A stretch of 64,000 nucleotides of DNA. Origin: Paenibacillus sp. YYML68. Lineage in GTDB: Bacteria; Bacillota; Bacilli; Paenibacillales; NBRC-103111. Location: NCBI RefSeq assembly GCF_027923405.1, contig NZ_BQYI01000001.1, positions 366,501 through 430,500 of the forward strand. The letters are read 5' to 3'. A program made the position numbers and the translations under genes. The notes under the pieces are model-generated. The model searched no databases and had not been told where the DNA came from. It was given only the letters and a program-made list of their open reading frames with translations. The number at the start of each line of letters is the position of its first letter. The stretch's first letter is position 1. This document shows positions 1-57,435 of the stretch, one piece after another.

Positions 1-3000
1 GACTTGACAGGTGCATCGACTGCCGGACAGTGGCGGCTTGCTGTACGGGCGAGCGATCTTGCAGGGAATACGGGCAATATTCAATCCGAGCCGTATACGA
101 TTGATCGCACAGGACCGCAGGTGACAGTCACACCGAATGGCAGTGAGACGTACAGTCGAAGCTACAACATTCAAGTGTCCGCCTCTGACCCGGCTGGTAT
201 CGGCACGCTTCAGTATCAATGGACCGATAGTGCCGATACGCCGGGATCGGGCTGGCGTTCGACGTCAAGCGGCAGCACGATTACGGGTGAGTCCCACTTC
301 GAGGGCATGTGGTACTTACATCTGATGGCGACTGACTCAGCGGGCAACGTCACGACGACGTACAAGCCGTTCCGATATGACCAGCAGGCCCCAACTGTCA
401 GCTTCTCGCCTGATGGCTCGAGCGCTCCGGCGAAGACGGCGAATCCAACCGTCAATGCGGTAGATGCGTACTCGTCGGTCCAGCTGTACGCCATGTGGAA
501 GCGTCAAGGCGAGTCGGTGCAGGCATCCGATGCAGGCTGGGTGCAGGTGAGCACAGCGAACGTGCCGCTGAACAGCGGCGACGGCTCCTGGGTGCTTCAT
601 GTGAAGGCGACGGACAGCGCGGGCAATATGCAGCTGTACGTGAGCTCGCCGTACTTGCTCGATAACACGGCGCCGACGGGCTCGGTTGTTCCGATGAAGG
701 CTTCGACGACATTACCGCAGGCCGAGCTCAAGCTGACAGGCACCGATACAGTCAGCGAGACGGGTGAACTGGAATATACGATTTCGTTGGACGGGGGCAG
801 TCAGTGGAGCAGCTGGCAGCTGTTCACGGCAGAGGTTCCAGTACAGCTTCCCGACCAAGAGGGTACGTACCCAATACAGGTGAAGCTTCGCGATCAGGCG
901 CTCAACGAGAGCAACGTATATACGACTGAAGTTGCGGTAGATCGGACCGCACCAACGGCAGAGGTTCAATATTCAACGACGAAGCCGACGAAGCAGAGCG
1001 TCATCGCGACATTGATCAACGTGCAGGACGGGGTTACATCGAGTGCTGATGTGAGGGTCGTCAATAACAACGGCGACATGTCCAGAACGTTGACCGAGAA
1101 CGGTACCTTCGAGTTCATTATTGAGGATGAGGCGGGCAACCAGCGTACGATCGAGGCGAAGGTAAGCTGGATCTTCGAGGAGGCCGTCAGCATCGGTGTG
1201 ACGCCAGATGGAAGAGCCACAGCTGCACAGGGGGCCAAGGCTGTCGTGACCGTTACGAACACGGCACCATTCGAGGTAGATCCGAAGCTGGAGTATCAGT
1301 GGAGCACAAGCGACCAGCCGTCTAGCTCTGCTTGGAGCGTGGCAGCGGACGGCACGTATAACATCACCGATAAGGTGCGTGTCGACGTACAGCTGGCTAA
1401 CGGCTCGTACACGTTCGAGCTGAACGGCGGTGATGGGGACTGGTATTTGCACGTACGAGCGTTCGACAGTGATGGTGTGCCTGTTGTGAAGTCGACAGGA
1501 CGGTTCCTTCTGGACAATACGGCACCGACAGGAAGCGTGGAGCTGGCGCAGCCGATTACGCGCAGCCCGGAGGCGAAGCTGAAGCTGACTGGAGCGGACG
1601 ATCGGACGATTAACGGTAATCTCGAGTATGCAATATCGACGGACAACGGCACGAGCTGGTCCAGCTGGACGCTGCTGGCTGCTGAGCGTACGGTTGATTT
1701 GCCCAATCAGGAGGGCACGTACAGCATCTACGTCAAGCTGCGGGACGAAGCTTCGAATGAGAGTGTCAGCTATCCGGTGCAAGCGATTATCGATCAGACG
1801 GCGCCAACAGCTTCGATTCAATATTCGACAACGGAAGCGACGAAGCGCCCGGTGACGGCTACACTTGTAGGCTTGGCGGATAATGTGTCTGCCGCTGAGC
1901 GCATTACCGTATTGAACAACAACGGTGAGAAGACGAAGGAGCTTACAGCGAACGGGACGTTCACCTTCGTTCTGGCTGATGAGGCTGGCAACGAGCGTAC
2001 GATTGAGGCGAAGGTCGATTGGATCTACGAGGAGAACGTCGAGGTGACGATTATGCCTGCCGGTCAGGGGACCGCTGCACAGTCGGTGAAGGCGAGCGTC
2101 GTCGTGACGAACAGCTTCCCGGTGCCTGTAGACCCGAAGCTGGAGGTTCAATGGACGAAGGAGAATGCAGCACCGGCTAGTCAAGGCTGGAAGAAGGCCG
2201 AGGCGGGCACTTATTCGTTAGATGGCGAAGGTGCCGAGGCGAAGGTAACCATTACAACCGATGAGCACGGTCATCACCTAGAGCTGAGCGGGGTGGATGG
2301 AAGCTGGTACTTACACGTCCGCGCCTTCAACAGCGACAATGAACCGACGCTGAAGTCGAGCAGCCGCTACTTGCTGGACAATACGGGGCCGACGGGCTCG
2401 GTAGAAGCGGCTGTAGCTGTAACGAAGAGCAATGAAGTGACGATGAAGCTTCAAGCGCAGGACAACCTGAGCACGTCGTCCGAGCTCATGTATACATGGT
2501 CGACAGACGGTGGGCTGACGTGGAGCGCATGGGCTGCCTACGACACGGAGAAGACGGTCAAGCTGCCAGATCAGGAGGGCGAGCACACCGTTCTTGTGAA
2601 GTTCCGTGATGCGGTCTTGGTTGAGAGTGCGACCTACAGCACGCGTGTGACGATTGACCGCACAGGTCCATCAGCCGTCGTCCAGTACTCGCTTAGCACC
2701 TACACCAAGGGCGTGGTAACCGCGACGCTTGCGGACTGGAGCGATAACGTATCGACACCGGATCGAATGAAGGTGACGAATAACGGTGGAGCTGAGGTGA
2801 AGACGTTCAGCTCTAACGGAGCCTTCAGCTTCATCCTTGAGGATGAAGCTGGCAATACAACGTCAATCGAAGCGAAGGTAGACTGGATCTTCGAGGAGCT
2901 GGTTACGATCAGCCTCGAGCCGAACGGCAGCACAGTGGCTGCCCGCGAGGCGAACGCGGAAGTAACGGTACATAATACAGCACCGATTACGGTGGATGCG

Positions 3001-6000
3001 AAGTTGCATTACCAGTGGAGTCAACAGGCGACACCTTCTGATCCGAATTGGATCGAGGCTGTGCACGGAAGCAGCAAGACGCTCGCGGAAGGTGTCACAT
3101 CTCGTGTAGTCGTCAGCGGAGGCAAGCATCAGATTAAGCTTGCTGGAGCGGAAGGAAGCTGGTACTTGCACGTGAAGGCGCTGAACAGCGAAGGGGCACC
3201 GACGGTGAAGTCGAGCGAGCCGTATGTGCTTGATAATACGGCGCCGAAGGGCAAGGTGCGTTACAGTCCGGCTACCGCGACGGGCAGCTTAGTAACGGCG
3301 TATCTGGAGCTAGAAGAGGCAGCGACGGTCATCAGCCCTGAGAACGGGGCGTTGTTCCGCGTTTTTGATCAGAATGGGGAATACGAGTTCCGCTTCAAGG
3401 ATGCAGCAGGCAATATCGGGACCGTGAAGGCGGAGGTGACGTGGATTGATCCGTCGCTCAGCACGGCCCATATCAGCTTCTCCACCCGAGAGCTGACGAA
3501 TAAGCCAGTGCAGGTGACGATCAGCGTCACGGGTGAGCCTGAGCGCAGCATTGCGAGTGTGGACATTCCGGCTGATATGCAGCCGGTGCTGATCGACAGC
3601 AAGGCTGCAGCGAATGGCACGGTCACCTCGGTCGTCTACGAGGTAGGGGCGAACGGTATCTTCCACGTTAATATTAGCTATAGTGGCATAGACCGTATAG
3701 ACCGTATTCCAGTAACGGTCGATAACATCGATCGGGTCGTACCGACTGGCTATGTCACACTCGATAAGCAATCGTGGACGAATGGTCAAGTGATCGCGAC
3801 GTTGCATGCACAGGATAACGCCGGTGCTGTAACGGTGCTGAACAACGGAGGCCAGTGGACGCGTACATTTACGGATAACGGGCAATTCGAGTTCGAATTC
3901 CGCGATGCAGCAGGCAACACGGCCAAGGTGATCGCTACGGTGAGCAACATTGACCGTACAGCACCAGTAGGCACCGTGTCCTACAGCACGATGACGTGGA
4001 CGAAGGAGCAGGTGACCGCGACCTTGTCCGCAACGGATAATAGCGGCGCAGCCGTCGTCATCGTCAACAACAACGGTCAGGCTGACCGACTGTTCACGGA
4101 TAACGGCGAATATACGTACATGCTTCGCGACGCGGCGGGCAACACCGCAGAGGTGAAGGCGGTAGTGTCTCAGATCGACCGCGTCGCACCGACGGGAACG
4201 CTGAGCTACAGCGTCGACCCTAGCCAGACGACGAATCAAGCGGTCACGGTGACGATTACGCTCAGCGATGCTTCGAATACGGCTCGCGTTACGAATAACG
4301 ACGGAGCCTTGACGTACACGTTCGAGGACAACGGGGAGTTCGTGTTCCACATCGCCGATGAAGCGGGCAATACCGCGGAGGTGAAGGCGGTTGTGGCCAA
4401 TATGGACACCATCGCACCTCAAGCGGACGTTCAATATTCGGTCACATCTTGGACGATCGGTAACGTGACGGCATTGTTGAAGCCAAGCGAGCCGGTTCGC
4501 GTGCTGAACAATAACGGTTCATTGGAGTACGTGTTTACAGACAATGGAACGTTTGACTATGAGATTGAGGATGAAGCTGGCAACAAGGCGACGATTACGG
4601 CCAAGGTTGACTATATCGATCGGACGCCCCCTGCCGGTACGCTCGAGTACAGCACAACGGCTTGGACGAGCAGCAACGTGACGGTCACCCTGCAGCCGCA
4701 GGACAACAGCGGCGCATCAGTTACCGTTACGGGTGGGAAGCTGACGCATACATTCACCGATAACGGCGAGTATACGTTCACGCTGAAGGATGCCGCTGGC
4801 AATATCGGCACCGTGAAGGCTACGGTGAGCAACATTGACAAGACGGCGCCGACCGGTACCGTATCGTTAAGCACGACCAACAAGACGAATCAGGATGTAC
4901 TAGCGACGTTAACGGCGCAAGACAGTCAGAGCAAGGCGACGGTCGCGAACAATAATGGCAGCATGACGTATCTGTTCACGCAGAACGGTCAGTTTACGTT
5001 CGAGCTCGTCGATGAAGCGGGGAATAAGACGCTCGTACCAGTGACCGTCAGCAACATCGACAAGACCGCGCCTACCGCACAGCTGGTCTATTCGGAGAAG
5101 GGATGGACGAAGGGCAACGTACAAGTAACGGTGAAGCCGAGCGAGCCTGTGACCATCGTCAATAATAATGGCTCCGATACGTATACCTTCACGGACAATG
5201 GCAGCTTCCAGTTCGAGCTAATCGATCAGGCAGGCAACAAGGCGGTCATTACTGCCGAAGTGTCGAACATCGACCGTACGGCGCCCACGGCTGAAGTGCT
5301 GCACAGCGTCCAAGGCTGGACGAACGGCGATGTGACCGCAACCGTCGTACCATCGGACAACAGCGGAGCGCCTGTCATCATCGTCAGCAACAATGGCAAG
5401 AGCGATTATGTGTTCCGCCAGAACGGCGAATTTGATTTCGTGCTGCGGGATGCAGCGGGCAATACGGCGACGGTGAAGGTAACGGCTGCCAATATCGATA
5501 AGACGCCGCCAACTGGCAAGCTGGTGTACAGCGCCGACGTGCGGAAGAAGACGAATCAGGATGTGACCGCAACGGTAACAGCCAGCGATACACAGTCGAA
5601 GGTGCATATCGCGAACAACGACGGCAAGCCGACCTATACGTTCACGGCGAACGGAGAGTTCAAGTTCGAGCTGGTCGATGAAGCCGGCAACGTCGGCTAT
5701 GCCACAGCGGTTGTAGCCAATATCGATAAGGAAAAGCCGACGGCTACGGTCGAATATTCCAAGCTCGGCCCGGCTCCGACGAACAAGGACGTCATTGTGA
5801 CGCTGAAGAATGCATCTGAGCGCATCTACGTGACGAACAACGAGCAGAAGACGAGCTATACGTTCACGACGAACGGACAGTTCGCCTTCCAGATCGTCGA
5901 TGATGCGGGCAATACCGCGGTCATCGAAGCGAAGGTCGATTATATCGACAAGGTCGCACCAGTCGGAACGGTCACCTATAGCACGACCGAGCCTACGCGC

Positions 6001-50216: not shown

Positions 50217-50423
50217 CTTCCAAGAAGTAATGCCACTGTCATTGGCGCGAAGAACAATGATAACGACGAGCTGCGCTACGAAGCCGGCGACGTGCTGTTC
50301 CACCTGCTCGTGCTTCTGCGCGAACGCAAGGTACCTCTGGACGACGTGCTTCGCGAGCTGGAGAGCCGCCATCTCAAGAGCTCATCTGATCAAAAATTTT
50401 CCCGCAGGAGTGAAATCCGCTGA
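50217..50423 (+). pseudogene. hisE: 3' fragment of hisE (phosphoribosyl-ATP pyrophosphatase)
   Basis: In the frame ending at the TGA 50421-50423 the peptide reads ATVIGAKNNDNDELRYEAGD, then VLFHLLVLLRERKVPLDDVL and RELESRHL. This is the C-terminal helix bundle of HisE/HisIE; the N-terminal part is replaced by unrelated AT-rich DNA. The stop overlaps the ATG of the next gene (TGATG), the coupling expected of an original his operon. Confidence 0.75.
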
Positions 50424-51403
50424 TGGTAATGATCGACTACCACACGCATCACGTTCGCTGCGGCCACGCCTCCGGCACCTTGGAGGAATACGTAAGGCGC
50501 GGCATCGAGATCGGGCTGACCCAGCTGGGGCAGTCACTGGGGAACATTAAGCTTTCGCGCTTTAAGAGCGGCGAAATTTACTGCCTATACGAGGAGAGCA
50601 TCCGCAACTGTGACGTCTTTCTGGTACAGACCTTCTCTCATCCGATCAACGAGCATCTGGTAGAGCTGCTGGTCATGATGGACGCCGCCAAGCGGGCTTC
50701 GGCGAAGACCGTCAACATTGTCCTCCCGTACTATGGATACTCCCGTCAGGAACGGAAGGCTGCGCCGCGCGAGCCGATCTCGGCTAAGCTCGTTGCCGAC
50801 CTGCTGCAGGCTGCCGGAGCGCACCGCGTTGTGACGATCGACCTGCATGCGCCGGCGATTCAAGGATTTTTCGACATTCCTGTCGACCATCTTACCGCAC
50901 TTGACCTTATCAGCGACTATATTCGCCGCAAGGACATCCGCAATCCCGTCGTCGTATCTCCGGACGCAGGCCGCGCTTCCGCGGCGGAGAAGATGGCCAA
51001 CGTGCTGGACGCGCCATTCGCGATCATGATCAAGAAGCGCCCGAGTCACAACGAGTCGGTCATCACGCACCTGATCGGTGAAGTCGCCGGCTATACGCCG
51101 ATTATTATCGAGGACTTGATCGACACCGGTACGACGATCGTCAACGTCGTTGAGGGGCTCAAGGAGCGTGGCGCTGAGGACGCGTATATATGCGCAACGC
51201 ACCCGGTATTCTCCGGACCTGCGGTGCAGCGTCTCGATCATCCGAACATCCGCGAGGTCGTCATCACCGATTCTATCGCTGTGGATGAAGGCCACCCGGA
51301 CAAATTCAAAATCATCACAGTTGCACCGCTGCTGTCCAATGCGATTCGTATTATTCTAGAGGGCGGTTCCATCTCCTCGCTGTTCAAGTACGGCGGCGTA
51401 TAG
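50423..51403 (+). CDS. prs: HisJ N-terminus fused to ribose-phosphate pyrophosphokinase
   Basis: A 326-residue fusion. Residues 1-36 (MVMIDYHTHHVRCGHASGTL, then EEYVRRGIEIGLTQLG) are the start of a PHP-type histidinol phosphatase HisJ. From residue 37 (QSLGNIKLSRFKSGEIY) the protein is a PRPP synthetase paralogue lacking its first 20-25 residues. Retained parts are RQERKAAPREP, DLHAPAIQGFFDIPVDH, the flexible-loop KKRPSHNES and the PRPP loop IIEDLIDTGTT (usual DD replaced by ED). AGGAG lies upstream. A deletion between hisJ and a downstream prs explains it. It could still make PRPP or be decaying. Confidence 0.8.
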   Translation: MVMIDYHTHHVRCGHASGTLEEYVRRGIEIGLTQLGQSLGNIKLSRFKSGEIYCLYEESIRNCDVFLVQTFSHPINEHLVELLVMMDAAKRASAKTVNIVLPYYGYSRQERKAAPREPISAKLVADLLQAAGAHRVVTIDLHAPAIQGFFDIPVDHLTALDLISDYIRRKDIRNPVVVSPDAGRASAAEKMANVLDAPFAIMIKKRPSHNESVITHLIGEVAGYTPIIIEDLIDTGTTIVNVVEGLKERGAEDAYICATHPVFSGPAVQRLDHPNIREVVITDSIAVDEGHPDKFKIITVAPLLSNAIRIILEGGSISSLFKYGGV

Positions 51404-51535: not shown

Positions 51536-51841
51536 TCAAGCCCTGTCTCTATTATTGATTCCCCGCACGAGCCAGTAAATGAACAGGTATAACAATGTAA
51601 TGCCAATGCTTCCGGCTAAAGGTATCGTTACAACTCCGATCCCCTGCTCGGTCACGATAGCTTTGTAGCTGCTGCCATCCATAGAAGCTTGCTTTTCATA
51701 GTACCCTTTGAGGTAATACCAATCCTTTCCAATGCGGTCCCCCAGCTTCATCTCGATTTGGGATAAGTAGATTAGAATTGCTCCCATAATGAGGGTGAAG
51801 CTTACAAAGCATATTCCAAGCGCATTCCAGACCCATTTCAT
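51536..51841 (-). CDS. small two-helix membrane protein, last gene of the peptide operon
   Basis: A 101-residue protein. ATG 51841 overlaps the protease stop by 4 bp, which decides the start. Helices at about 5-28 and 70-92 flank a polar loop. No family was recognised. Its place at the end of a peptide-maturation/export operon suggests an immunity or accessory factor, which is inference. Confidence 0.65.
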   Translation of the reverse strand: MKWVWNALGICFVSFTLIMGAILIYLSQIEMKLGDRIGKDWYYLKGYYEKQASMDGSSYKAIVTEQGIGVVTIPLAGSIGITLLYLFIYWLVRGINNRDRA

Positions 51842-52719
51842 AACGATTCCTCCTTGTCGACTTGTCTCCCAAGCTGGTTCCTGCGGAACCAGGACAGCGC
51901 CGCTCGGGCTACATTCTTGCCATCGGTAGAGAGAAGGGTTAACAAATTGCCCAGCCATACGACGGCCAAGTAAAATAACTCCGAATCTGATTGCTTATAC
52001 GCAAATACCAGTAGAATAACGCCAATAAGTGCAGGAACGATCGGGCCGAGCAAGGAAACAACCACTTCCTTCGCGGGGGTCAGGCGCTCCCTGTACAATC
52101 CTACTGTATAATTATTTCTCCCGATAAATAAAAAAGCATGAGGCTGTTTGACTAAATGCAGTCCCATAACGTGGGAAAACTCATGAACGGCTATGGAAAC
52201 AAAAATATTAAACGTAAAGACAAAGGCTGACCAGCCCATTCCTAAAGCATAGTAGAGGAGAAACATCCCCGCTAATATGTATATGTAATAAAACGGAATG
52301 AAAAAAATCAAGTAAATCAACAGAAAAATAGGATTTCTGGTATAGGCGGGAAGGTTATATCGCTTCTTGATCTTCATAAGCTGAAATAAGGAGCCGATCT
52401 GTAGGGTTCGAAACAAAAACCAAGCCGTTTGCAAGCGGTCTTTCCATGAACGGACACGTATGTTCAGGAGAAAATGTCCATTTAACTGCTCAAAGAATCG
52501 GATTGTATCCAAGGTGATCCGTTGTTCGTCTGCGTCATATTGCTTCGCTACCTTAGTGGCAATCTCTCCGATTGAGCGTCTCCCATCCACATAATGCAGC
52601 ATCCAGTAGGAGCTCGAATTGATAGGGTAGGATTCATTGGAACTGTCGTCGGTAACCTGACTTTCAGAGACATGAACCTGAAGGGGCAAATAAGGTATAT
52701 CGTGAACAAATAGATTCAT
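51838..52719 (-). CDS. PqqD-domain M50-type membrane metalloprotease
   Basis: A 293-residue protein. The ATG at 52719 overlaps the permease stop (ATGA), deciding the start. The N-terminus (about 30-90) resembles a PqqD/RiPP-recognition winged helix (LHYVDGRRSIGEIATKVAKQ). Several membrane helices follow, with the zinc motif HEFSH (His179, Glu180, His183), a VSLLGPIVP segment and a third-ligand candidate in LLSTDGKN near 275. This matches site-2-protease-like M50 enzymes in RiPP clusters such as YydH. It is predicted to bind and cleave the peptides encoded upstream. Confidence 0.8.
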   Translation of the reverse strand: MNLFVHDIPYLPLQVHVSESQVTDDSSNESYPINSSSYWMLHYVDGRRSIGEIATKVAKQYDADEQRITLDTIRFFEQLNGHFLLNIRVRSWKDRLQTAWFLFRTLQIGSLFQLMKIKKRYNLPAYTRNPIFLLIYLIFFIPFYYIYILAGMFLLYYALGMGWSAFVFTFNIFVSIAVHEFSHVMGLHLVKQPHAFLFIGRNNYTVGLYRERLTPAKEVVVSLLGPIVPALIGVILLVFAYKQSDSELFYLAVVWLGNLLTLLSTDGKNVARAALSWFRRNQLGRQVDKEESL

Positions 52720-54110
52720 AGGGCTCGTTGCTCCGATTCCAGACGGTTTTGGTAAAACTTCATATAAGCAACAAAGAAAGCGGCTGCGCAAGCTGCTTTG
52801 ACAAGTGACGGAATAGGAACGAAGGTCATGCTCCATTGGACGAATCCATATCCAATTATAGACATGGCGGTCATAAGCAATCCGCCTTTATCGGAATGAT
52901 GAAGAGCGACTCGAGCAAGCAGGGCCACAGTAATAAATAACAGCCAATCTGAAAACAGTGTGAAATAATCTAGGCTCAGGCGCAAGCCAAGGAAGCGGTG
53001 AACGAGCAGCGAAAGGCAAATAAGCAGCCCCCCCAACATACAATAAAAGATCGCCTTGCCCGTCAAAAGCGCGGGGATCTGAATGGGAAGACGCCGAAGT
53101 GAGCGGGTCTGCCCTCCCGTATAAAGAGACCTGTTGCTGAGTCCTAGACCGATGGTGAAGATCAAGAATATGAAAAAGCGATGATCGACTTGATGAAAAA
53201 CTTCATGGGCGAAAAGTATAAACATATTTCCAAGCAGCAGGTTGAACACCAGTCCCCGCAAAGAACCGCCGCCCCGGAACCAGGAGGCAGACTCCATAAT
53301 GAAGCCATTCACTAGGGCGCTTGGACTCATGGTGCGGGATCTATACTTGCTCGTTTGAGGGGGGGTGTCGTTGGATAACCTGCTCAATCCGAAATAGATG
53401 AGGAGAAACAGCAAGGCAACTGCTGCCAGCAAGTAGCCTATTGCTTCCATATGGCCGACTGCCAATTCAGACAGCCACTGTTCCGGGTGGGGTAAATAAT
53501 AGGATAGAGGCTCAGCGTGCGCCATCCCAAGTCCATAGAGAAGGCCAGCGGCAGCCACCAGTACGATGGCGAACATACTTTCTAGCATCCGTAAGGAAGC
53601 CGGTGCTTTCCGGAATAGCCAGGATAGAAGTTCTTTCGCTGCGAATGCCCCCTGAACTTGAATCAGAACGAAGCAAGCATAGCCGGCAATCATAACCATC
53701 CAGGGGACTTGGAGCTTCATATAGCTGCAAATCGCAGCCAATAGACTTGCGCTTTCCAGCATGAGAAGACCGAAGAGCAAGAGGAGAGACGGAATCGCTT
53801 GTGTACGGTACAAATCTTTGACGGCTATAGGCAGCCTCTGCAAAAAAGTTTGCAGCACCGGCGGGAACGTATACAAGAAGAACATCGTCACGATAAAGAG
53901 CATAGCCCCGGCAAGGGAAAATATGCGCACCAGCACATCCAAGGATGAGGTGCTCTCTGTCAGCTCCCGAAACGCTCCCTTGACTTCGATATAAATATAA
54001 TATTGCGTCGCTATCATAATGAGCAGGGCCGCAAGGGCAATGCCCCTGTCAAGCGAAGAAGCTGCACGCCGCCGCTGCTGGAAAGCAATTTTACAAATTT
54101 GCCACCACAC
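52716..54110 (-). CDS. ABC transporter permease-like membrane protein
   Basis: A 464-residue protein with about 11-12 hydrophobic helices in two halves around a polar linker (about 235-260). No strong family signature was recognised, but it directly follows and overlaps an ABC ATPase gene by 20 bp, so it is taken as its membrane subunit. Likely exports the processed peptide or gives immunity. An HEVFH string near 300 is probably fortuitous. Confidence 0.75.
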   Translation of the reverse strand: MWWQICKIAFQQRRRAASSLDRGIALAALLIMIATQYYIYIEVKGAFRELTESTSSLDVLVRIFSLAGAMLFIVTMFFLYTFPPVLQTFLQRLPIAVKDLYRTQAIPSLLLLFGLLMLESASLLAAICSYMKLQVPWMVMIAGYACFVLIQVQGAFAAKELLSWLFRKAPASLRMLESMFAIVLVAAAGLLYGLGMAHAEPLSYYLPHPEQWLSELAVGHMEAIGYLLAAVALLFLLIYFGLSRLSNDTPPQTSKYRSRTMSPSALVNGFIMESASWFRGGGSLRGLVFNLLLGNMFILFAHEVFHQVDHRFFIFLIFTIGLGLSNRSLYTGGQTRSLRRLPIQIPALLTGKAIFYCMLGGLLICLSLLVHRFLGLRLSLDYFTLFSDWLLFITVALLARVALHHSDKGGLLMTAMSIIGYGFVQWSMTFVPIPSLVKAACAAAFFVAYMKFYQNRLESEQRAL

Positions 54111-54858
54111 GGGTTATCAGCTCCTTAGAGGAAGGCTTTAACTTCAACTTAACGAACAGCTCTTCAATGGTGTTGACAGCGTATTGATGCAAGATCTCAT
54201 CTTTATTGCCGGTCAGCAGCAGCTTTCCCTGATCGATCATGGTTACACAGTCTGCCAATTGATCGGCAAAATGTAAGTCATGGGTCGAAACGAGGACAGT
54301 CGTTCCATGATTTCGTAATTCACTGAGCAACTGTTTAATGATATAGATCATATTGGGGTCAAACCCGGCAATAGGTTCATCCAAGATGATCAGCTTGGGG
54401 TGATGGATCATCGCAACCGCCAACTGAACCTTTTTGCGCATCCCTCGCGAAAATCCGTTTACATTGCTGTGAACATCGCTTAATTCCAGAAGTTCAAAGA
54501 GGGTCCTGGCGTTCTCCTCAATTTTGTTTTTCTCCATGCCATACGTATACCCCGCAAAGCGAACAATTTCCATCGGAGTAAGATGATCTAGCAACGCTTC
54601 ATCATCCGGCATGTATCCGATGCGTTTGCGGTATTGATATTCACTTGCTCCGAGAGTTCGCCCCTCCCACGATACGTGACCAGAGTCGACCTTCAGTTGA
54701 TTGAGCATGATCTTAATCAATGTCGTTTTGCCCGAGCCGTTAGCCCCGATTAGACCATGTATGGTACCCGCATGCACCTCTAGGTTGATATGTGTAACCC
54801 CTTTGTCCGCCGAATACATCTTGGTGATTTGATGGAGTCCGATCAGCACATCGTTCAA
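54091..54858 (-). CDS. ABC transporter ATP-binding protein
   Basis: A 255-residue ATPase with a TTG start; AAGGAGGT lies 8 bases upstream. Walker A is GANGSGKT (38-45), signature GFSRGMRKK (about 133), Walker B LIILDEP (about 154) and the switch histidine in STHDLHF. It resembles the CcmA/YydI-type ATPases of peptide export or immunity systems. The 3' end overlaps the permease gene by 20 bp. Confidence 0.92.
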   Translation of the reverse strand: MNDVLIGLHQITKMYSADKGVTHINLEVHAGTIHGLIGANGSGKTTLIKIMLNQLKVDSGHVSWEGRTLGASEYQYRKRIGYMPDDEALLDHLTPMEIVRFAGYTYGMEKNKIEENARTLFELLELSDVHSNVNGFSRGMRKKVQLAVAMIHHPKLIILDEPIAGFDPNMIYIIKQLLSELRNHGTTVLVSTHDLHFADQLADCVTMIDQGKLLLTGNKDEILHQYAVNTIEELFVKLKLKPSSKELITRVVANL

Positions 54859-54881
54859 TTCGGGCGACCTCCTTAAAGAAA

Positions 54882-54901
54882 CCCGGGCTGTCCAGCCCGG
54901 G
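54882..54901 (-). terminator. attenuator-like hairpin between the peptide genes and the ABC genes
   Basis: CCCGGGCT and AGCCCGGG arms with a very short loop are followed on the minus strand by TTTCTTT. A terminator between precursor genes and transport genes usually lets precursors be made in excess with partial read-through. Confidence 0.7.
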
Positions 54902-54941
54902 GCCGGAATGGCGATACGATTCTAGGTTGGAAAATAGTTAT

Positions 54942-55160
54942 TTAGGGCTGATAACATTCTACTTTCCACACGGTACCGAACACATAGCTATCTACGCGGC
55001 TCAACCCGCCAGAGCTTCTGCAGGAATCAATAGCTCTTTGCAATTGATATTGGCTGTAGGCCCAGATAACGAACAGCAGAATCAAGCCTACCCACCACCA
55101 CTCGTCGCTGGTTACTTCCTTCTTACGTTGCAATTGGATCTCCGGGGATTCATACATCAT
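54942..55160 (-). CDS. putative RiPP/bacteriocin-like precursor peptide 1
   Basis: A 72-residue peptide, start ATG 55160 after TAGGAAG (an in-frame TTG at 55166 is less likely). Polar N-terminus (1-18), then DEWWW (19-23) and a hydrophobic helix (WVGLILLFVIWAY), then a polar C-terminus with Cys47 (DSC), SGG, FG and W-x-VECY with Cys69. About half its residues match peptide 2 and the cysteine positions are identical. It precedes ABC and PqqD-protease genes, so it is predicted to be their substrate. It could instead be a small membrane subunit. Confidence 0.65.
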   Translation of the reverse strand: MMYESPEIQLQRKKEVTSDEWWWVGLILLFVIWAYSQYQLQRAIDSCRSSGGLSRVDSYVFGTVWKVECYQP

Positions 55161-55216
55161 TTTCAACTTCCTACCCTTCTATAAGAGATTTTAAGTAATG
55201 AGCTATCCTACCGTCA

Positions 55217-55435
55217 TTAATTCCTGTAGCATTCCACTGTCCATGATGATCCAAAGAAGCTGGACACCACCCGCGCGCTGCCGCCGCTGTTCGTGCACTC
55301 ATCGACAGCTTTCTCCTCCAGTGCATAATTGCTATAGACACGCACCGCAAACAAAAGAATCATACCTAGCCACCACCATTCGTCACGAGTCAGGTCTCGG
55401 GATGGAATGGTTATTGAGGGGGCCGCATAGTTCAC
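55217..55435 (-). CDS. putative RiPP/bacteriocin-like precursor peptide 2
   Basis: A 72-residue peptide with a GTG start; a near-perfect ribosome site (AGGAGGTGA) lies 8 bases upstream, implying strong translation. Layout as in peptide 1: polar leader, DEWWW (18-22), hydrophobic helix (WLGMILLFAV), then Cys47 (DEC), SGG, FGSSW and VECY with Cys69. The 22-residue cysteine spacing is shared. Such pairs of unlike but related peptides recall two-component bacteriocins. First gene of the minus-strand operon. Confidence 0.65.
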   Translation of the reverse strand: MNYAAPSITIPSRDLTRDEWWWLGMILLFAVRVYSNYALEEKAVDECTNSGGSARVVSSFFGSSWTVECYRN

Positions 55436-55809: not shown

Positions 55810-57435
55810 TCGTGAATCCGTGATAAAAGAATATGAAAACAAGAGAAAAATAGAGGGAATCCAAGATTTTGTGTCGAAATTAAAGGATTATAACGATCCA
55901 ATACTTTCACCAATGGGGTGATTGGCTTGAAGTTCGAATTCGTCCAATCTAATGAGTACTTAACCACACATACCGGGTTAACCGCTATTGGAGCTTTGCT
56001 AGCAAAGACTAATCTCGGTGCACGTTTGAATAAAACGGTATTGCCCGAGAACCCGAATCCAGATATCTCGAATGCTGATGTGATGAAAAGCTACTTGGGT
56101 CTGCTCTGCCAAGGCAAGAGCGACTTTGATCATATTGAGCCATTCCGGCAAGACGATGCGTTCAGCATCAGTCTTGACATTCGCGATGTTCCATCTAGTC
56201 CAACCTTGCGCCAGCGCTTAGATATGGCGGGTTCGTCGATATGGAAAGATATTGTGCTGGAAGAGTCGGCGGACCTGTTACGCCGAGTGGCCGCCCCGCT
56301 TACGGGTGTTGATCTTCTTGTCCTGGGCGAGAAGGAACGGACTACGTTGTTGCCGCTCGATATCGATGTGTCTCCCTTTGACAACTCCCGCACGAAAAAG
56401 AAGGCGTATCTCGCACCTACAAAGGCCATGATGGTTTTGCTCCGATCTTCTCTTACTTGGGCAAAGAGGGCTACGGCGTCCATGTGGAACTGCGTGAGGG
56501 CAGCGTGCATTGCCAGAAGAACACGGATGAATTTTTGAAGGCCAGCATTCAATATGCACGCCGAGTCACAGACCGTCCGCTCCTTGTTCGAATGGATGCA
56601 GGCAACGACTGCTTGGCGAATCTGAAGGTCTGTCACACTCAAGAAACTCGTGCCGATTACATCATCAAGAAAAATCTGCGAAGAGATCCAAAGGAGACGT
56701 GGCTCTTGTTCGCACAAGATCTGGGCATATGCTGCGAAGAACGCGAAGGAAAGAAGGTATACATCGGGTCGATGCTCATTCGTGAACAAGGATTTGACGA
56801 GCCGCTGCGTCAAGTGTTTCGTGTCATCGAACGAACCATAAGCCGTGAAGGTCAAATCTTCCTCGTTCCTGAGATCGAGGTCGAGGTGTACTGGACTTCC
56901 TTGCGTTGCTCGGCTTGGCGGGTCATTGAACTGTATCGCGATCACGGCACCAGTGAACAGTACCACAGTGAGATCAAGACAGACCTTGATCTGGAACGCT
57001 TGCCCGCTGGCAAGTTTGCAACCAACAATCTCATATTGCATGCGGGCGTGTTCGCATACAATATGCTTCGCTTGATGGGGCAACTCAGTCTGCAGATTCC
57101 CGACTCTCCGATTCGAAACAATGTTGGCCGCAGACGGATTCGCACGGTCATTCAGAATATGATCTACCATGCTTCACGACTCGTAAGACATGCTAGGCAA
57201 GTCAAATTCGCATTTGGAACGCACAGTCCTTGGTTTCAAACGTTGCGACGTGTGTATCTCACCATCCTAACCACTTGAGACTCAATGTTTAATAGGGGTG
57301 TATACGCCTTCACGCGTAGGCGTGTTTCAACATGTGCTTTTTTTGTCCACGCGAGGAAGTTCAATTGAAATGCTCATTACCTTGATGCTTTTACCATTTC
57401 CCTACAGTCACGAGCGGGCTGTCACGGATTCACGA
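55810..57435 (+). mobile_element. IS1380-family insertion sequence, 1,626 bp
   Basis: Terminal inverted repeats TCGTGAATCCGTGA (55810-55823) and TCACGGATTCACGA (57422-57435) are perfect over 14 bp and point inward. They are flanked by a 4-bp target duplication GAAC (55806-55809 and 57436-57439). The size, duplication length and transposase type all fit IS1380. The intact ends and duplication indicate a recent simple insertion. Confidence 0.88.
55927..57278 (+). pseudogene. IS1380 transposase interrupted by a -1 frameshift
   Basis: The first frame (start TTG 55927 or GTG 55918) runs MKFEFVQSNEYLTTHTGLTA to VSPFDNSRTKK, then leaves homology. Homology resumes in the -1 frame as GKEGYGVHVELREG and runs to the stop at 57278, with RDHGTSEQYHSEIKTDLDLE near the end. 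The shift lies at about 56395-56402 in CACGAAAAAGAAGG. Slipping back one base at AAAAAG restores the expected EGVSRTYKGHDGFAP. Either a one-base loss has killed the gene or it uses programmed slippage. Confidence 0.8.

Follow-up and report, generated by a model that had tools for sequence, protein, structure and literature searches.

Introduction

TMcins are antimicrobial RiPPs (ribosomally synthesised and post-translationally modified peptides) described in 2025-2026 (PMC12328743, PMC13252029). The TMcin of Staphylococcus aureus is a secreted bacteriocin with one transmembrane helix and a disulfide-pinned hairpin, which forms large stable pores (Dickey 2025, PMC12328743). Its leader is removed by the site-2 protease TmcP, cleavage requires the two-helix protein TmcE, termed an escort, the DsbA-like TmcD makes the disulfide needed for activity, and TmcBC exports the peptide, which was found, cut and exported, in the culture supernatant (Nur 2026, PMC13252029). 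Here we analyse an operon of this class in a stretch of 64,000 nucleotides from Paenibacillus sp. YYML68 (contig NZ_BQYI01000001.1, positions 366,501 to 430,500; hereafter the window), where the minus strand from 55435 to 51536 carries two precursor genes, an attenuator and genes for an ATP-binding cassette (ABC) ATPase, a permease, a protease joining a PqqD and a site-2 protease (S2P) domain, and a small protein. Each of the core genes tmcA, tmcB, tmcC, tmcP and tmcE has a counterpart in it. An initial annotation, made from the letters of the window alone, had called the operon undescribed, which is outdated now that the class is known.

The protease connects the operon to a second body of work, on RiPP recognition elements (RREs). 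The PqqD-like RREs of lasso peptides and LPPs (TbiB1, TfuB1, LppB; Popov 2026, PMC13381572) share with the window protease the PqqD fold, a YxxPx[L/V/I/F/A] leader and an Asn/Asp pair, N33 and D70 of LppB binding the Pro and the Tyr of the YxxP leader, respectively. There the RRE works with B2, a soluble leader peptidase, or with the SpI-like LppS, and in kinase or cyclase pathways, whereas the RRE in the window is fused to an intramembrane metalloprotease whose proposed substrate is a transmembrane precursor. The RRE-bearing protease and the paired precursors make the window operon a variant of the TMcin operon, with a putative docking domain that goes unmentioned in the published main texts: PqqD is absent from the main text of both TMcin papers (PMC12328743, PMC13252029), and RRE and YxxP from that of Nur 2026 (PMC13252029). 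We consider it quite likely that the operon makes TMcin-type bacteriocins by way of an RRE-bearing leader protease, intramembrane leader removal, disulfide closure and ABC export, and that these form pores. Two RiPP principles that stand unlinked in the TMcin and RRE papers, PqqD-type leader recognition and site-2 intramembrane leader removal, would thereby be joined.

Results and Discussion

The protease and its putative docking domain

The TmcP-like protease (51838..52719, minus strand) consists of a PqqD/RRE domain at about residues 5-84, containing N34 and D71, and a site-2 metalloprotease with H179-E-F-S-H183 and D266-G267. The PqqD region proposed in the initial annotation held up in the Pfam search (PF05402, 1.2e-7, above cut-off), and M50B reached 0.0048, below cut-off. 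The family profile confirms the two assignments, with matches to the M. jannaschii site-2 protease 3b4r at 7.9e-10 and to PqqD 5sxy at 8.4e-10; 3b4r is the same structure reported for TmcP (PMC13252029). A profile of the PqqD domain also matches lasso RREs, weakly. In the predicted structure the first domain superposes on the lasso RRE 6jx3 (TMt 0.69, rmsd 2.4) and the second on 3b4r, with no Foldseek match at E <0.001.

Sequence comparison reveals conservation of both the catalytic and the putative leader-binding residues. N34 is present in all 11 PqqD domains and D71 in 10 of them, with Glu in the remaining one; their spacing of 37 equals that of N33 and D70 in LppB, with which they were equated by this spacing and the family alignment, LppB itself being unaligned. 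Six of eight further proteases keep the Asn-37-Asp spacing. On the substrate side, the window leaders YAAPSI and YESPEI fit the [Y/W]xxPx[L/V/I/F/A] motif of PqqD-type RRE leaders, and [Y/F/W]xxP stands at the very N-terminus of 21/21 precursors from PqqD-type clusters versus 0/11 from PqqD-less clusters, a count uncorrected for shared ancestry; x-[V/I/A/F/L] follows the motif in 20 of the 21. One genome (G411) holds clusters of both types, and each obeys the rule. From the PqqD domain, the matching Asn/Asp pair and the co-variation of leader and domain we infer RRE-guided intramembrane proteolysis. With this rule, YxxP with PqqD and none without, the recognition of substrates by an intramembrane protease can be tested directly, and genome mining for TMcins gains a handle.

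The precursor peptides

Both precursors are paralogues of 72 residues on the minus strand, with DEWWW and cysteines at 47 and 69, as first read from the sequence. Peptide 1 (TmcA-like; 55217..55435) has a GTG start, YAAPSI at residues 3-8 and a transmembrane helix; peptide 2 (54942..55160) has an ATG start, with a TTG two codons upstream as a possible alternative, and the leader motif YESPEI. They are 49% identical. Each has what characterises TMcin precursors, one transmembrane helix and, after it, a short C-terminal stretch containing two conserved Cys; a Trp cluster (W20-W22) stands at the helix start. An AlphaFold2 model from four sequences (pLDDT 73) predicts a helix over residues 17-49, which has Cys47 close to its end, and a hairpin of two strands, 53-58 and 65-70, with Cys69 in the second, as described for TMcin. 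The leaders of PqqD-type peptides are mostly acidic and the cores often basic, and no topology could be read from positive-inside charge. Neither peptide has a significant match in Pfam, NCBIfam, PHROGs, PADLOC or the PDB, Foldseek of the model gave no match below E 2, and the peptide strings were not found in the literature searched.

The window genome, a single contig of 5.09 Mb, belongs to the same GTDB family as Paenibacillus sedimenti, which has a complete homologous operon (identities of 44% for the protease, 34% for the small protein and 28% for the permease) and the same peptide pair. Orthologues across the two species are 57-61% identical and paralogues 46-49%; because the paralogues are less alike than the orthologues, the duplication probably predates the divergence of the window species and P. 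sedimenti. Differences in peptide 1 between the two species fall mostly on third codon positions (27, 16 and 46 for the three positions), and homologues in a second family have a median dN/dS of ~0.18, with some low-divergence pairs >1. The pair and the full operon in P. sedimenti, together with this dN/dS, argue that the genes are not chance open reading frames and bear out the selection on the peptides that had been proposed.

The label "two-peptide" given initially is right for the two precursor genes in the window, but most relatives have a single precursor. It is possible, though we rather doubt it, that both diverged precursors are docked by one RRE-guided protease and co-assemble into a hetero-oligomeric two-component pore, which would then be the first two-peptide member of the TMcin class. 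Near-identical tandem precursor copies were seen at L151 3997-4497 (G829) and L072 5906-6534 (G479); these look like recent duplications, unlike the diverged window pair.

Distribution and co-occurrence of the operon

Homologous operons occur in Bacilli and Clostridia. A search of 400 Bacilli genomes with the protease profile returned nine further full-length PqqD-S2P proteins, all nine encoded in a like operon with a 64-73-residue peptide, ABC ATPase, permease, protease and usually the small membrane protein. The peptides share the plan MxYxxPx[V/I/A] - Trp - helix - Cys - 21-25 residues - Cys - 1-4 residues. A peptide profile run over the same genomes recovered all PqqD-operon peptides and, in addition, weaker matches. 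At the seven weak loci inspected, whose peptides had no part in the profile and two of which are from genus g89, the peptide always adjoins an ABC gene, a permease and a short DUF3267-type HExxH protease without PqqD; five of them also showed a small membrane protein. Profile-profile comparison of PqqD-type and PqqD-less components gave probabilities of 98% for the proteases, 95% for the permeases and 89% for the small proteins.

Co-occurrence was strict. Within the window's order (399 genomes), protease and peptide are confined to the same two genomes; in family f25, 27 of 80 genomes have the PqqD-protease and exactly the same 27 the peptide (E < 1e-9; Fisher 6.5e-22, uncorrected for ancestry), always on the same contig and 2.3-2.9 kb apart, with 25 of the 27 outside the profile-building set; in family f28 both are found in the same 3 of 23. 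The co-occurrence proposed at the outset as a check was thus seen, homologues being found with the protease and ABC genes and not without. Further weak peptide matches in f25 lie at ~1e-4, and in G411 such a match led to a PqqD-less cluster beside enolase (L155 184-3013). This third, more diverged cluster of the genome has an 89-residue two-Cys peptide, ABC gene, permease and 122-residue HExxH protease, and a small two-helix gene was not seen in it. Searches of plasmids, phages and IMG/VR returned no relative of the window protease.

Several peptide matches were rejected. At the order level, one (G100) was an overlapping frame inside a response-regulator gene and five (G138, G060, G204, G058, G389) contained stop codons; those in G470, G493 and G503 covered the profile partially in frames of 223-230 residues, and neither of the two such loci inspected, L067 and L069, has an operon of this kind.

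Site-2 proteases are known to process peptide pheromones, as Eep does for the enterococcal pheromones, and in principle the protease could set free either the leader or the looped C-terminus, to serve as a cell-to-cell signal sensed by adjacent regulators. Two histidine kinase/LuxR-type regulator pairs do adjoin the P. sedimenti cluster, and L078 and L039 have an Rgg and a TPR regulator next to them, respectively. However, the type of regulator varies by locus, none is in the window operon, and regulation of a bacteriocin operon accounts equally for such neighbours; the presence of a dedicated exporter and of disulfide enzymes fits a peptide that is folded and secreted, and the relatives by layout are killers (PMC12328743). 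We therefore regard a pheromone as improbable.

Transporter genes, attenuator and small membrane protein

The remaining components, all on the minus strand, agree with those initially listed. The TmcB-like ABC ATPase (54091..54858; 255 residues, TTG start) matches PF00005 at 1.4e-29 and takes its role by analogy with TMcin clusters (PMC13252029). The TmcC-like permease (52716..54110; 464 residues, GTG start) had no match in the Pfam scan and is placed by a profile-profile match to permeases of PqqD-less clusters, as is the putative TmcE-like escort, a small two-helix membrane protein of 101 residues (51536..51841), by its match to the small proteins of such clusters. The frames overlap by 20 bases (ABC ATPase/permease), 4 (permease/protease) and 4 (protease/small protein). 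Between the precursor and transporter genes lies the attenuator (54882..54901), a GC-rich stem-loop, CCCGGGCTGgacaGCCCGGG, followed by TTTCTTT; no shuffle of the gap out of 100 scored equally for the hairpin and T-run at 54901-54882. Comparable hairpins occur in nine other loci, with 0-1 of 100 shuffles as good.

The attenuator bears on a further alternative, in which the peptides would stay permanently in the membrane as subunits or regulators of the ABC pair, itself a detoxification or envelope-stress pump, and would be turned over by the site-2 protease without being secreted. Their constant linkage to the ABC genes, their single transmembrane helix and the lack of a classical secretion signal are as such a subunit would have them; yet an attenuator between peptide and pump genes implies peptide excess, tandem diverged precursors, an RRE-matched leader and linked disulfide enzymes point away from a pump subunit, and in S. 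aureus the homologous peptide undergoes cleavage and export and is found in the culture supernatant (PMC13252029). We consider this reading highly improbable.

Comparison with known systems

TMcin-G1905 of S. aureus, the type member of the TMcin family, resembles the window operon in its one-helix, two-Cys precursor with a predicted disulfide-pinned hairpin, its ABC ATPase and permease, its two-helix escort and its HExxH site-2 protease, and in a core operon without other tailoring enzyme. The window differs from it in the N-terminal PqqD/RRE domain of the protease, in a leader of ~20 residues with YxxP as opposed to 45 residues in TMcin-G1905, and in having two diverged precursors, precursor genes that come first and are followed by an attenuator, no DsbA gene and a Cys spacing of 22.

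The initial annotation had named yydHIJ as the nearest layout, a parallel that we dropped because TMcin is closer. The operon of the B. subtilis YydFGHIJ epipeptide system (PMC7026026) likewise encodes a small peptide together with a membrane metalloprotease and an ABC pair. It has a radical-SAM epimerase (YydG), whereas neither a radical-SAM nor a cyclase gene was found in the window operon or among its scanned neighbours, as had been noted at first sight; the PqqD domain, the two conserved Cys forming the presumed loop, the YxxP leader and the profile matches to TMcin-type clusters are features of the window family. An epipeptide-like system is already contradicted by these observations, and we give it hardly any credence. 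The initial interpretation as a whole survives in part, namely in the RiPP/bacteriocin-like operon type, the loop, the selection and PqqD, and fails in "undescribed" and yydHIJ. For the daptides, one PqqD-type protease (L040) matches the HExxH protease model NF041824 over most of its length at 5.2e-8, but its 32 bits fall far short of the 300 of the curated cut-off, and no daptide tailoring enzymes were seen in the operons. Literature searches on PqqD with M50, on YydH and on MauE with bacteriocin yielded nothing relevant.

Chromosomal clusters on NC_006270.3 and NZ_CP025935.1 are cited by Dickey 2025. NC_006270.3 is a Bacillus licheniformis sequence. PqqD-type clusters may already be among the TMcins of Dickey 2025, with the domain un-noted.

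Proposed mechanism

We suggest the following pathway for TMcin-type bacteriocins in the window. Each 72-residue precursor would insert in the membrane, where the PqqD/RRE domain of the protease would grip the N-terminal YxxPx[V/I] tag (Tyr3 and Pro6 via D71 and N34, respectively) and so place the membrane-spanning precursor before the site-2 protease domain. The latter may cut near the DEWWW helix start, aided by the two-helix escort; by analogy with TMcin-G1905, whose cleavage site lies 24 residues ahead of the first Cys, the mature peptide would begin near residue 20-23. On the outer side, a Cys47-Cys69 disulfide, probably made in the window species by a host oxidase, the operon having none of its own, would pin the β-hairpin to the helix end. 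The ABC pair would extract the mature peptide from the membrane and secrete it, and the secreted peptide could oligomerise into pores in competitors. The attenuator would set peptide output above that of the machinery. Cleavage, escort, disulfide, export and pores have been demonstrated for the S. aureus relative (PMC12328743, PMC13252029), and from these we infer the biochemistry at the window locus, antibacterial activity included. Our reading of the operon layout and of what protease, disulfide and exporter probably do was reached independently of the TMcin papers, from which the escort role and pore formation were taken.

Several observations weigh against this pathway. The AlphaFold models of protease and peptide are weak (pLDDT 60 and 73). 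At E <= 1 the window protease has no match to DUF3267 (PF11667), to which the studied TmcP of S. aureus belongs; it is linked to DUF3267-type proteases by profile-profile comparison (98.4%). Two of the eight further proteases (G803, G830) lack the Asn-37-Asp spacing, and the equation with LppB by spacing and the ancestry-uncorrected YxxP tally belong here as well. Both window peptides lack the second conserved TMcin Trp, which relatives carry at the helix end as VWC; so do the peptides of P. sedimenti, G730 and G651, and the residue is a feature of the family logo, not a strict criterion. The Cys spacing is 22 versus 25, and the helix is less hydrophobic (KD 1.2-1.3) than those of relatives. 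Our literature search found no experiment on the window locus or on any PqqD-type TMcin cluster.

Disulfide enzymes and the putative escort protein

Outside the staphylococci, thiol-disulfide genes lie in or adjoin the operon in four clusters. P. sedimenti has a thioredoxin-like CQIC protein and MauE, the Paraclostridium plasmid cluster a DsbA-like protein, and the TMcin-type operon at L152 6945-8272 ends with a DsbA-like thioredoxin and VKOR, a complete disulfide-forming pair; a CPWC protein at L078 is nearest to the PedC/BrcD bacteriocin disulfide isomerases (3.9e-7, below cut-off). The window cluster is without such a gene, and the window genome encodes a DsbB homologue (3.4e-12).

At L045 6446-7669 a small two-helix segment is apparently fused to the C-terminus of the PqqD-S2P protease (407 residues). 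TmcP and TmcE have been proposed to derive from one six-helix protein (Nur 2026, PMC13252029), and this natural TmcP-TmcE fusion fits the proposal. It is, with the disulfide genes of non-staphylococcal clusters and the Paraclostridium plasmid pqqD, one of the points at which the present data touch the literature.

Relatives on plasmids

Plasmid-borne relatives were found in Paraclostridium bifermentans (PqqD type), S. epidermidis 14.1.R1 and a Roseburia. The "PqqD family" genes on two P. bifermentans plasmids (L081 3421-8398, L082 3398-8373) encode PqqD-S2P proteases in TMcin-type clusters that additionally hold a DsbA-like gene and another protease, of the DUF3267 type. The literature relates a plasmid-borne pqqD of P. 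bifermentans to PQQ synthesis (PMC10665999); this gene may well be such a PqqD-S2P protease.

S. epidermidis 14.1.R1 has a strong, heat-labile, unidentified activity against P. acnes, for which its authors favour a type VII system (PMC4770681, PMC5347227). The main cargo (728-4654) of its 9.3-kb plasmid pHOB2 (L079, NZ_CP018844.1) is a PqqD-less TMcin-type cluster, whose annotated precursor gene of 297 bp has the length given for tmcA; the other annotated genes are an adjacent regulator and replication, mobilisation and hypothetical genes. That this cluster lies behind the anti-P. acnes activity is offered as a suggestion only.

Genomic neighbourhood in the window

Scanned neighbours of the operon include a TRAP transporter, a histidine kinase, an insertion sequence transposase, oxidoreductases and a phosphoribosyl pyrophosphate (PRPP) synthetase. 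The transposase (DDE_Tnp_1_4; 55918-57278, plus strand), split over two frames, directly adjoins the operon upstream, and the PRPP synthetase gene (50423-51403, plus strand) lies convergent downstream. The Pfam match of the latter begins at residue 34, and its first ~33 residues resemble the N-terminal end of a PHP-domain protein (MVMIDYHTHHVRCGHA..., PHP E 0.068), perhaps as a fusion or remnant.

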